This document shows, one piece after another, positions 48,860 to 54,948 of a DNA stretch of 64,000 nt (position 1 is the first letter of the stretch; each line of letters begins with the position of its first letter). Origin of the DNA: Paramicrobacterium humi. GTDB lineage: Bacteria; Actinomycetota; Actinomycetes; Actinomycetales; Microbacteriaceae. The position numbers were made by a program, and so were the translations under genes. The notes beneath the pieces were generated by a model. That model ran no database searches and was not told the origin of the DNA. It saw nothing but the letters and a program-made list of their open reading frames with translations. The stretch covers positions 2,790,001 through 2,854,000 of the forward strand of contig NZ_FNRY01000001.1 in the NCBI RefSeq assembly GCF_900105715.1. The letters are read 5' to 3'.

Positions 48860-49561
48860 ATGGCCGTAGAGGCGAATGAGGGAAAGTCGCTCGAGACGAC
48901 GATCGACGGCGTCGCATACCTGCGCATCCCGATAAAGACGAAGCTCGTCGGCCCCGATGACGACATCGTCGACGTCGTGACGACGTTCGCGCGCGATGTC
49001 GTCGAGGACGGCGACATCGTGTTCGTCACCGAGAAGATCGTGGCGATCACGCAGGGACGCGCATACCCGGTCTCCGAGATCCACCCGCGGAAGCTCGCGA
49101 CGTTCCTCTCGAAGTACGTGACGAAGACCTCGTACGGCATCGGCCTCGGCATGCCCGAGACCATGGAGATGGCGCTGCGCGAGTGCGGCACGCCCCGCAT
49201 AGTGTTCGCGGCCGCCGTGTCTGTCGTCTCGAAGCTGTTCGGGCGCTCCGGCGACTTCTACCGCATCGCGGGGGAGAAGGCTCGCGCTATCGACGGTCCC
49301 ACTCGGCACACGATTCCGCCCTACAACTCGCAGGTCGTGCTCGGTCCCGAACGCCCCGACGAGGTCGCCGCGCAGCTCAAGGCGGCCCTCGGCGGCAAGG
49401 CCGACGTCCTCATCGTGGACATCAACGACCTCGGCGGGAACATTCTCGGTACGACGCTCGGGCACGAGTCGGACGAGCGCATGGTGCGCGTCCTCAAGGA
49501 CAACCCGCTCGGGCAGCAGCACCAGAGCACGCCGATCGGCATCATCCGCCGCACCAACTAG
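48860..49561 (+). CDS. CofE-like ligase (coenzyme F420-0:L-glutamate ligase family)
   Basis: A 233-residue protein of the CofE fold, identified by YLRIPIKTKLVGPDDDIVDVV, GDIVFVTEKIVAITQGRAYPVSEIHPRKLA and the metal-binding LIVDINDLGGNILG. CofE adds gamma-linked glutamates to F420; this homolog stands without any other F420 gene in the window and may act on a different carboxylate. It lies 43 nt after rpoD, in front of an ATP-grasp gene and a racemase pair. The true substrate is unknown. Confidence 0.82.
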   Translation: MAVEANEGKSLETTIDGVAYLRIPIKTKLVGPDDDIVDVVTTFARDVVEDGDIVFVTEKIVAITQGRAYPVSEIHPRKLATFLSKYVTKTSYGIGLGMPETMEMALRECGTPRIVFAAAVSVVSKLFGRSGDFYRIAGEKARAIDGPTRHTIPPYNSQVVLGPERPDEVAAQLKAALGGKADVLIVDINDLGGNILGTTLGHESDERMVRVLKDNPLGQQHQSTPIGIIRRTN

Positions 49562-49571
49562 CTGCAACGAG

Positions 49572-49612
49572 AAAAGGCTCGGGTCGTCCGTGTGGACGGC
49601 CCGAGCCTTTCT
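49572..49612 (+). terminator. bidirectional terminator after the CofE-like gene
   Basis: AAAGGCTCGGG (49573-49583) pairs with CCCGAGCCTTT (49600-49610), with an inner GTCC/GGAC stem. The T run reads in both directions between convergent genes. Confidence 0.9.
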
Positions 49613-49623
49613 CAAGCGGGGGG

Positions 49624-50643
49624 TCAGAAGCCGATGATCTCCTGGAAGCGGGGCCGCGAGCCGGTGCGGATGCCCGTGACGCTCGGCTTGTTCTCGTACA
49701 CGCCGACCGCCCAGTTTCCCTCGACGAGGACCGGTCCGTCCTCGCCCATGACGATGTCCCATCCGACGTAGCGCACCTCGGGAACGACGCGTGCGACCTG
49801 GTCGATGAACGGGTGAACGGTCTCCATGAGCGGCAGCTGGAAGTCGGGGATCGACACACCGGATTCCGGGTGGGTGGCGTGCACGCTGCCGTGCGAGTCG
49901 TAGCCCCGGCCCATCGAGTGCCCGTTGAGGTCGAGCATCGTGTAGAAGCCGCCGAAGGTCTGCTGGTCGCTTGCTTGGCCGCGCCCGAACTTCTGCGCCA
50001 TCGACAGGATGTGCGTCGTCTCGCCGTCGAAGAACGTCGTCACGCGCGTCGTGTTCGCGGTGCCGGGGCAGACCTCGGCCAGCACGGGGTGCTGCTGGAT
50101 GTACTCCTCGATCAGGGTCTGGCCCTGCGCGAGAAGCCGGTCGCGGAAGGCTCCCCAGTCGGTGATCTCGCTCGCGATGTGGCGGTGCACGCCGTGCCCG
50201 GAGTTGCTGAACGGAACCTTGCCCATGACGGTGCCGGCGCTCTCGATGAACTCGCGCAGCTCGTCGACCGAGGCCGTTCGCACGTCGAGCCACCGGCGCT
50301 TGAGGAACGGGTCGAACACCTTGTTGAACTCGATCTTGTCCTGGAACGTTCCCCGGTGCTCCCTGGCGTCGTACTCCATGGCGATGTGGTTGGAGATGGA
50401 GTGCGTCATGAACGTCTCGCGCTCGGCGCGGGACAGGATCGCGAAGTCCCAGTCCACGTAGTCCTGGAATGCCGTGTTCCGGAAGACGGCCGACCACAGC
50501 ATGTCGACCACGACGACCGGAACCGGCTTGTGATGCTGGGCGGAAACTTCCTTCGCCCGTTCGATGACGGAGGCGGCGTCGAAACGGCGGACTCTGTTTC
50601 GCAGGTACTCGAGGCGAATCTTGAGGCGGTTGCCGTTCGGCAT
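49624..50643 (-). CDS. ATP-grasp protein, sugar-transfer-associated type
   Basis: A 339-residue protein with the ATP-grasp fold: EFNKVFDPFLKRRWLDVR in the N-domain, GKVPFSNSGHGVHRHIAS near the ATP loop, TLIEEYIQQHPVL with the conserved Glu, and DIVMGEDGPVLVEGNWAVGVYEN with the metal-binding Glu/Asn. This resembles the ATPgrasp_ST (hexapeptide-like, sugar-transfer) family that forms amide bonds. It is divergent from the alanine racemase-like pair, has a perfect TATAAT at 50690-50685, and GGAGAG before the ATG. The substrate is unknown. Confidence 0.8.
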   Translation of the reverse strand: MPNGNRLKIRLEYLRNRVRRFDAASVIERAKEVSAQHHKPVPVVVVDMLWSAVFRNTAFQDYVDWDFAILSRAERETFMTHSISNHIAMEYDAREHRGTFQDKIEFNKVFDPFLKRRWLDVRTASVDELREFIESAGTVMGKVPFSNSGHGVHRHIASEITDWGAFRDRLLAQGQTLIEEYIQQHPVLAEVCPGTANTTRVTTFFDGETTHILSMAQKFGRGQASDQQTFGGFYTMLDLNGHSMGRGYDSHGSVHATHPESGVSIPDFQLPLMETVHPFIDQVARVVPEVRYVGWDIVMGEDGPVLVEGNWAVGVYENKPSVTGIRTGSRPRFQEIIGF

Positions 50644-50750: not shown

Positions 50751-50791
50751 TGATTCGACGTGCAGGCAGCCCAGCAGAGGAGTTCGGTCCG

Positions 50792-51328
50792 GTGACGACA
50801 GACAGCTCCGCCGCCGGCATCCGTCTTCTCCATCTCTCCGCCGCGCAGAACGAACGGCTGCGACGGGCGTGCGCGGGAGACGCTGAGGCCGCGGCCTCGT
50901 TCGACACCGAGCTCGTGCGCGAGCCGGTTCGGCTTCTCGTCGAGGTGATCTCGACAAAGTCCGTGCCCGCAGGCTCCGGCGTGTCGTACGGGCACACCTA
51001 CGTGACGACGACGGAGACCGTGCTCGCCCGCGTCGCGATCGGGTACGGGCATGGTCTTCCGCGGAAGGCCGGGAATCGCGCGTCCGTGACGTGGCGGGCG
51101 ACCGGGCAGATGCCGGTGCGGCTGCCGATCGTCGGCCGCGTCGCAATGGACGAGTTCGTCGTCGACGTCGGCTCGACGCCGGTCGCCGCCGGTGACCGGG
51201 TCGTCGTCTTCGGCGACGCCGCGAACGGCGAGATCCCGCTCGAGCAGTGGGCGGCCAGCATCGGTGAACCGCCGGTAGCCGTCGCCGCATGCTTCGACGC
51301 GCGCACTCGGCGGGTGATCAGCGCATGA
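50792..51328 (+). CDS. stand-alone alanine racemase C-terminal domain protein
   Basis: A 178-residue protein made of a ~45-residue helical start and an alanine racemase beta-domain. It keeps the residues this domain gives to the partner active site: Y85 in AIGYGHGLPR and M119-D120 in PIVGRVAMDEFVVDVG. It also has the loop GSGVSYGHTY. The TIM barrel and PLP lysine are absent. GTG 50792 has AGAGGAG upstream. The stop overlaps the ATG of the complete racemase-like gene by 4 nt, so the two products are made together and probably associate. It could alternatively be a relic, but coding quality and key residues are intact. Confidence 0.85.
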   Translation: MTTDSSAAGIRLLHLSAAQNERLRRACAGDAEAAASFDTELVREPVRLLVEVISTKSVPAGSGVSYGHTYVTTTETVLARVAIGYGHGLPRKAGNRASVTWRATGQMPVRLPIVGRVAMDEFVVDVGSTPVAAGDRVVVFGDAANGEIPLEQWAASIGEPPVAVAACFDARTRRVISA

Positions 51329-52395
51329 GCGAGTCCGCCGTGCTTCACGCCCGAGTCTCCCGCTCGGCGCTCGTCGACAACGCCCGTCTCGTCGCCGACC
51401 GAGTCAGCCCCGCCGCCCTCGCGGTCGTCGTGAAGGATGACGCCTACGCGCACGGACTCGAGGAAGTGGTGGGCACCCTCCGTGCCGCCGGCGTCGATCG
51501 CTTCGGCGCGCTCGATCTCGCGACGGCCCTGCGTGTGCGGCGCCTTGCCCCGGCGGAGATGATCTTCACGTGGGTGTTCGGCGAGAACGATGATCTGCGG
51601 GCGGCGATCGACGCCGAGCTCGACCTGGGCGTCTCGTACCCGGCGATCCTCGAGCGGGTGGCTGAGGCGGCCTCGGCGCTCGGCCGGCCCGCGCGCGTGC
51701 ACCTCAAGATCGATACAGGACTGCACCGTGCCGGCGTTCCGCCGCGCGAGTGGCCCGCCTTCGTCGAGCGTGCCGCGATTCTCGCCGGCCAGGGTCTCAT
51801 CGACGTGGTCGGCGTGTGGACGCACATTTCGGAGGCGTCATGGGATGCCGACTCGGCATCCATCCATCGCTTCCATGCGGCGATCGCCGCGCTCGAGGCG
51901 GCCGGGCTCACCCCCTCCGTCCGCCACCTCGCGGCAAGCGCGGCGTCCTTCGAGCGGGCGGATGCGCGATTCGACATGGTGCGCGTGGGCGCGTTCGTCT
52001 ACGGGATAGCCCCTGGTGACGGGATCGGTCCGGCGCAGCTCGGCCTGCGCCCGGCGCTCCGGCTCACGACGACCGTCTCATCCGTCGATAACCGGAACGG
52101 TGCGCGCGTCGCGATGATCCCCGTCGGCGGCGTTCACGGTCTCTACACGGACGCGGCGGGCGCCGTCGACGTGACCATCTCGGGCCGGCGCCACCGCGTA
52201 CGCGCGGTCGGCAGCACGCGGTCCGAGATCGACGTCACGGGCACAGGGATCGTCGCGGGGGATGAGGTCGTGCTCTTCGGCGACGGCAGCTCGGGCGAAG
52301 CTGTGCTTCAGGAGTGGGCGGACGCGATGGGCACGATCGGCGAAGAACTCGTCATCCGACTGGCCGCGCGTGCTGAGCACGCCTACGTCGATTGA
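51325..52395 (+). CDS. alr: alanine racemase-like PLP enzyme with degenerate C-terminal domain
   Basis: A 356-residue fold-III PLP protein. The barrel keeps K37 (VVVKDDAYAHG), R135 (DTGLHRAG), H167 (VWTHISEA) and R220 (FDMVRVGAFVYG). The usual Asn in HLANSAA is Ala204. In the C-domain the catalytic Tyr of GYADG is replaced (PVGGVHG, G269) and the MD pair reads S300-E301. The missing residues are present in the coupled upstream protein, so a mixed complex could form a full site. Substrate may differ from alanine. Confidence 0.85.
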   Translation: MSESAVLHARVSRSALVDNARLVADRVSPAALAVVVKDDAYAHGLEEVVGTLRAAGVDRFGALDLATALRVRRLAPAEMIFTWVFGENDDLRAAIDAELDLGVSYPAILERVAEAASALGRPARVHLKIDTGLHRAGVPPREWPAFVERAAILAGQGLIDVVGVWTHISEASWDADSASIHRFHAAIAALEAAGLTPSVRHLAASAASFERADARFDMVRVGAFVYGIAPGDGIGPAQLGLRPALRLTTTVSSVDNRNGARVAMIPVGGVHGLYTDAAGAVDVTISGRRHRVRAVGSTRSEIDVTGTGIVAGDEVVLFGDGSSGEAVLQEWADAMGTIGEELVIRLAARAEHAYVD

Positions 52396-52764: not shown

Positions 52765-52839
52765 CGATTTCGCTGTGCGCGTATGGCCAAGCAGCGCCGG
52801 TAGCGGGTGTCGATGAACGGATGCCGCTTCGCGCCGAAC

Positions 52840-52845
52840 TACTCT
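52840..52845 (+). promoter_or_regulatory. -10 element TACTCT of parE (leaderless spacing)
   Basis: TACTCT ends 6 nt before GTG 52852, which decides the start against an upstream in-frame ATG-like start at 52807. Confidence 0.5.
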
Positions 52846-52851
52846 GGATTT

Positions 52852-54948
<2,097 letters not shown>

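Follow-up and report, generated by a model that had tools for sequence, protein, structure and literature searches.

A split pair of alanine-racemase-fold genes in Microbacteriaceae with complementary active-site residues, probably forming an obligate heteromer

Two overlapping genes of Paramicrobacterium humi encode proteins of the alanine racemase fold that have each lost the part of the active site retained by the other, and we think it very probable that the two products assemble into an obligate heteromer, with a single composite PLP site in each unit, and that the pair descended from coupled tandem racemases. A diamino acid is our best guess at the substrate. The genes, here called UP (upstream) and DN (downstream), lie in a window of 64,000 nucleotides (contig NZ_FNRY01000001.1, positions 2,790,001 to 2,854,000; all coordinates below are those of the window). 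A homodimeric enzyme would seem in this way to have become two mutually dependent proteins, one with the cofactor and one with the missing catalytic residue.

UP (50792 to 51328, forward strand; 178 amino acids) begins at a GTG preceded by AGAGGAG at 50776-50782, and DN (51325 to 52395, forward strand; 356 amino acids) follows it through an ATGA at 51325 to 51328, which holds the UP stop and the DN start and confirms the 4-nt overlap that a first-pass annotation of this DNA had given; the same -4 spacing is possible in most relatives scanned. Pfam detects Ala_racemase_C in UP (104.3 bits, with no other domain above cut-off) and Ala_racemase_N in DN (172.3 bits), where Ala_racemase_C scores just 39.2 bits, and both proteins fall below the curated cut-off of 168 bits for TIGR00492, the NCBIfam alanine racemase equivalog (UP 76.3, DN 145.6). 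The predicted structure of UP (pLDDT 81.0, pTM 0.77) has 5fac_A as its best VIA match (Z 17.9, rmsd 3.0 over 162 residues), and that of DN (pLDDT 92.4, pTM 0.89) matches 5faj_A with a TMq of 0.93; being single-chain models, they support the predicted folds only. UP had been described as a stand-alone C-domain without a barrel. The barrel is indeed gone, but the domain is not bare: in the model a short strand and helix (residues 11-27) precede it, and the structural alignments begin at the N-terminal residues of Alr chains, such that UP consists of a racemase C-domain together with the strand and helix that open the chain in alanine racemases. DN is a PLP barrel protein with a C-domain that lacks the trans-acting residues.

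The gene order at the locus is sigma factor, CofE-like, divergent ATP-grasp, UP, DN, gyrB-like, in which the sigma factor and gyrB are what we presume these genes to be from their translations. By Pfam and a neighbour survey, the ATP-grasp gene (49624 to 50643, reverse strand; PF14397) is context only; a strict partnership with the pair was rejected, since 51 of the 299 genomes of the family have a homologue, and 12 of the 30 loci L038-L067 have one inside the 1.5-kb flank. The GyrB-like gene (52807 to 54948, forward strand) is also context, and a homologue adjoins the pair in all 30 of those loci. The CofE-like (F420 ligase family) and ATP-grasp genes (48860-50643) adjoin the pair in several relatives, and one or other may encode an amide ligase that acts in the same pathway. 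A separate, complete alr lies elsewhere in the genome (C1:399076).

Residues such as Lys39 and Tyr265 are given in Geobacillus numbering. Passages of two structural papers place Lys39 and Tyr354 of the homodimers in one subunit and Tyr265', Tyr284', Arg290' and Arg309' in the other (PMC3485190, PMC3146814), and text from a further paper adds Met and Asp to the contribution of the other subunit (PMC4517790), in agreement with the earlier premise that known racemases draw the Lys and the Tyr from opposite subunits. In 1XFC numbering, part of PMC3485190 describes Tyr271' as the inner tyrosine of catalytic type and Tyr290' as one of the entryway. When UP is aligned with 1XFC, Y66 is matched with position 271 and Y85 with 290. 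Because of this alignment and the published residue spacings, Tyr265 is assigned to the SYG motif and Tyr284 to GYxxG; UP Y85 and DN G269 thus both stand at the Tyr284 position, and the catalytic tyrosine of UP is therefore Y66, not Y85. The tyrosine of GYADG was dropped as the catalytic residue once the published spacings had been set against the 1XFC alignment.

With these assignments, UP carries Y66 in SYG (50984 to 50992) as the equivalent of catalytic Tyr265', Y85 in GYGHG (51041 to 51055) as that of entryway Tyr284', R91 (51062 to 51064) as that of entryway Arg290', and GRVAMD (51134 to 51151) with the equivalents of Arg309', Met312' and Asp313', all on the forward strand, as are the motifs of DN. 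There, the PLP lysine K37 (Lys39), which the first-pass annotation had rightly placed in a barrel, is located with Y41 (Tyr43) in VVKDDAYAHG (51427 to 51456), and K128 (Lys129) and R135 (Arg136) in HLKIDTGLHR (51700 to 51729). From 52066 to 52140 the alignment shows a stretch ending in GGVHG, where other racemases have GYADG, from which the Tyr265 position and its loop (approximately 15 alignment columns) are absent, and in GTIGEEL (52330 to 52350) E340 replaces the alanine-specificity Tyr354. The first-pass annotation had already noticed that DN has lost the catalytic Tyr and the MD pair and that UP keeps Y85 and M119-D120, and these observations stand; however, it took G269 and Y85 for the catalytic site when they mark the entryway position, and it put the lost MD pair at S300-E301 when the correct site is S297-T298. 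Reassigned in this way, with Y66 as the probable catalytic residue and the whole loop gone from DN, the residues make a cleaner case for partition.

To see how far the pattern extends, 299 family genomes were searched with the DN sequence and a DN profile and 110 matching regions (30 + 80) were opened, which gave 77 split regions (78 pairs, since L200 has two), 25 intact tandems, seven single ordinary racemases and one DN at a contig end. The locus, split or tandem, is thus present in at least 102 of the 299 genomes, and the true number may exceed this, as the regions opened were those of the higher-scoring matches. With 12 further split pairs (L034-L036, L069-L072, L076, L150, L151, L153, L160) and the Curtobacterium tandem L068, the totals are 90 split and 26 tandem pairs, the tandem set being L068, L208-L211, L215, L216 and 19 more loci; L223, a DN at a contig end with its partner out of view, and duplicate loci were left out, and 22 ordinary racemases served as a comparison set. 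Among the first 40 of 80 named loci, the split form occurs in five Microbacterium (L069-L072, L076) and the tandem in Curtobacterium L068, the others being single racemases. At the level of the order, the DN profile (E <= 1e-100) matched 14 of 258 genomes, 13 of them in Microbacteriaceae; in the one match outside the family (G149) a C-domain resembling UP lies within a 491-aa frame. Microbacterium sufflavum SSW1-51 (G685) has two separate split pairs (L150 and L160). In L076, from the MAG Microbacterium sp. 69-10, UP is broken over two frames by an apparent frameshift or assembly error.

In all 90 DN proteins Lys39, Tyr43, Lys129, Arg136, His166, Ser204 and Arg219 are present, position 354 is Glu (52) or Asp (38) and never Tyr, and both Tyr265 (84 gaps, six other residues) and the SYG motif are missing. 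In all 90 UP proteins SYG, Tyr265, Arg290 and Met312 are present, together with Arg309 in 86, Tyr284 in 82 (Phe in eight) and Asp313 in 78 (Asn in 12), and Tyr354 is found in none. A Lys39 box was found in 0 of 90 UP frames; the one apparent mixed pair, L041, owes its Lys to residues 250-279 of a stop-to-stop frame of 493 residues, 5' of the gene. The box of DN in L076 reads VMKDDAYGHG, an earlier score of Arg being due to a frame that also held a piece of UP. In 26 of the 90 pairs DN still has Tyr at the Tyr284 position, and in 60 an Asp aligns with 313, the alignment being weak there. The ordinary racemases are canonical at every scored residue except position 204 (Thr 15, Ser 7), with Tyr354 in 22 of 22. 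The partition agrees with the same-subunit and other-subunit residue sets published in the passages cited above and, since it is the same in all 90 split pairs, it amounts to more than chance. The first-pass annotation had proposed that losses conserved across Microbacteriaceae pairs would be informative, and the complementary partition in 90 of 90 bears this out; the opposite case that it had named, a DN that keeps its Tyr while UP decays, was searched for and found in none of the 116 split and tandem pairs. Nor does any of the 116 have just one of Lys39 and Tyr265 lost, or a DN without Tyr265 beside a UP still bearing Lys39.

The 26 tandems consist of two complete racemases, each copy having both Lys39 and Tyr265 (26 of 26), and they differ at position 354, where copy 1 has Tyr (25) or Trp (1) and copy 2 has Asp (15) or Glu (11). 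A -4 spacing, giving the 4-nt overlap, is possible in every one of the 26 tandem pairs and in 77 of the 87 split pairs scanned, by a scan that picks the start nearest -4 and so favours that value. Within the tandem set, 11 pairs (L068, L211, L215, L216, L224, L226, L228, L242, L249, L250, L254) have lost the carbamylated Lys129 in both copies, with Asn313 in copy 1 and Glu354 in copy 2, and in the remaining 15 these positions are occupied by Lys, Asp and Asp, which looks like a linked change across two proteins before any split.

Several further states are found among the split pairs. UP is full length with a dead barrel in five loci, where Lys39 is replaced by Thr (L183) or Asp (L052, L065, L067, L181), and the sizes of UP run from full length through about 240 aa to the 178 aa of the window. 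Within one genus, two genomes out of five (G625 and G662) have UP and DN naturally fused in one frame (L054, 729 aa; L058, 766 aa), and the other three (G474, G533, G582; loci L046, L049, L180) have them unfused. On a tree of 116 rows from which catalytic columns had been removed, DN barrels and tandem copy 2 form one group (SH-aLRT 95). In a smaller C-domain tree 76 of the 77 rows of UP and tandem copy 1 form one group (SH-aLRT 90), the exception being the UP of L192, which falls on a long branch among ordinary racemases; in the larger C-domain tree UP and copy 1 are not resolved as one group. Both larger trees need two changes between split and intact states, and for a single origin of split DN the AU test is borderline (p 0.083; 0.0459 after removal of five long-branch rows). 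The DN and UP of L076 were left out of the smaller trees, and long-branch rows were left out of some trees and tests. That the pair descended from two complete racemase genes, arranged in tandem and coupled in translation, is the best explanation of these data.

We propose the following mechanism. A homodimeric racemase gene would have been duplicated into two coupled genes, and copy 2 would then have gained an acidic residue at 354, making the site formed by the copy 2 barrel and the C-domain of its partner the useful one. The other site would have decayed, UP losing its lysine and later its barrel, and DN its tyrosine loop, so that each copy lost the active-site half that its partner supplied and one site would be left per UP-DN unit. 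In this site, DN would provide the PLP lysine, Tyr43, Lys129, Arg136, His166, Ser204 and Arg219 and the acidic 354, and the UP C-domain, in place of the C-domain of a homodimer partner, would provide the second base Tyr265' with Tyr284', Arg290', Arg309' and Met312'. The order of these events, the assembly of UP with DN and the catalysis by the assembly are what we infer from the present-day states.

The idea of such a heteromer was already in the first-pass annotation, and although some of the residues named for it were wrong, sequence comparison now strongly supports it, because the losses are complementary without a mixed state, two natural fusions exist and intact tandem relatives share the same overlap. 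Counted against the heteromer are the lack of resolution of UP with copy 1 in the larger C-domain tree, the stray position of the L192 UP, the Phe at the UP Tyr284 site in eight of 90 pairs, the Asn at Asp313 in 12 and the Tyr at the DN Tyr284 site in 26, and in principle UP could pair with the ordinary Alr of the same genome. DN might alternatively work without UP, as a homodimer with another base or in decarboxylation, aldol cleavage or as a PLP carrier, with UP as a regulatory or chaperone subunit. DN does have a complete PLP site and a confident fold of its own, fold type III includes non-racemases too, and the Phe at UP 284 would also fit; however, UP keeps exactly the trans residues that DN has lost, with Tyr265, Arg290 and Met312 invariant, a pure regulator would have no need of Tyr265, and a DN without Tyr265 never stands beside a Lys39-bearing UP, for which reasons we regard this as improbable. 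That UP serves the ordinary Alr of the same cell, whose barrel could take the UP C-domain, is very improbable, for although the window genome does have such an alr, ordinary racemases possess their own Tyr265 (22 of 22) and need no donor, and it is DN that UP directly precedes with an overlap and to which it is fused in two genomes. We give still less credence to both genes being decaying, functionless duplicates. Conserved residues are lost from both proteins, UP has shrunk and in L076 is broken, as decay would have it, but the losses are complementary, the retained sets do not vary across the 90 pairs, overlap and position are conserved, and dN/dS is approximately 0.15-0.27 for each gene in two same-genus comparisons, a figure that is approximate as dS exceeds 1.

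A heteromer of UP and DN could be just a second alanine racemase, as the nearest solved relatives of both proteins are alanine racemases, but the genome already has an ordinary alr, and all 90 DN and all 26 tandem copy 2 proteins have Glu or Asp at position 354, where all 22 ordinary racemases have Tyr. The acidic residue in every DN thus argues against alanine; according to a section of PMC4517790, one enzyme racemised alanine less well when the residue at this site was charged, and a portion of PMC3485190 gives Thr or Ala as the residue of lysine-preferring racemases. We therefore think a second alanine racemase rather unlikely and, judging from position 354, that the substrate of the heteromer is probably not alanine. 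Our best guess at the product would be D-ornithine or D-lysine for type-B peptidoglycan. Split pairs are carried by M. sufflavum SSW1-51 (two pairs), M. oxydans and M. testaceum StLB037, and in passages of PMC10757982 D-ornithine is reported for study strains including M. sufflavum SSW1-51, M. oxydans is in a clade given as D-ornithine, and the clade of M. testaceum StLB037 is given as D-ornithine except for M. enclense. In Cryobacterium sp. Y11 two single complete racemases were found and no UP-like partner, although the genus is listed with DAB (type B2-gamma) in a table of PMC7033078, which counts against a role in Dab or in diamino acids generally. Taken as a whole, the account in which a homodimeric racemase of Microbacteriaceae became an obligate heteromer through two or more parallel rounds of complementary active-site loss from a coupled tandem, and in which this heteromer makes the D-ornithine (or D-lysine) of type-B2 peptidoglycan, is one that we put forward tentatively and with more doubt than belief.

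Two other racemase paralogues came to light in the survey. L173-L177 (L177 being partial), from Curtobacterium PhB115 and several Microbacterium, are a separate paralogue in which His replaces both Lys129 and Tyr354. L074, from Arthrobacter sp. fls2-241-R2A-200, is a single complete paralogue with Asp354, Lys290, Lys309 and Glu129, and its substrate may differ from alanine.

In a literature search from which subscription papers were mostly outside coverage, no split or heteromeric enzyme of the alanine racemase fold with its two bases on two gene products was found, which agrees, within that coverage, with the earlier remark that no racemase with this division had been described. Each part is a known fold; what is new, to our knowledge, is that two genes share the active site between them. 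The series of states, from intact tandem through full-length dead barrel, shrunken barrel and 178 aa to fusion, offers a natural test case for the passage from homomer to heteromer, and UP-DN may be a concrete, testable candidate for a type-B cell-wall D-diamino-acid enzyme.

Among known systems, the closest in fold are the homodimeric Alr/DadX enzymes (fold type III; 1XFC, 5FAC, 1VFH), which likewise build a two-base site from a Lys and the Tyr of another chain. In these, however, one gene supplies both halves and the dimer has two sites, whereas UP-DN has two genes, one proposed site per pair, Glu or Asp at 354 and one subunit cut down to the trans domain; DN shares the fold and the barrel with the PLP lysine, but not the same-chain Tyr265 and Tyr354. 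The lysine-preferring and broad-specificity racemases (Lyr/Bar), as described in excerpts of a paper cited above, have the same fold and an altered 354 site that makes room in the pocket for amino acids that are larger or basic, but they are homodimers with Thr or Ala at 354 and an Asn after the active-site Arg, features that DN lacks, having Glu or Asp at 354, R135-A136 in the window and a retained Lys129. The tandem racemase pairs of Microbacteriaceae share the gene order, the 4-nt overlap and the Asp or Glu at 354 of copy 2 with UP-DN, and differ in that both copies have Lys39 and Tyr265 and each could form a complete site. Serine palmitoyltransferase (LCB1/LCB2) offers a parallel from further afield, as a PLP enzyme that has become a heterodimer in which one paralogue is without the PLP lysine, although it is of fold type I and eukaryotic, and both of its subunits are full length.
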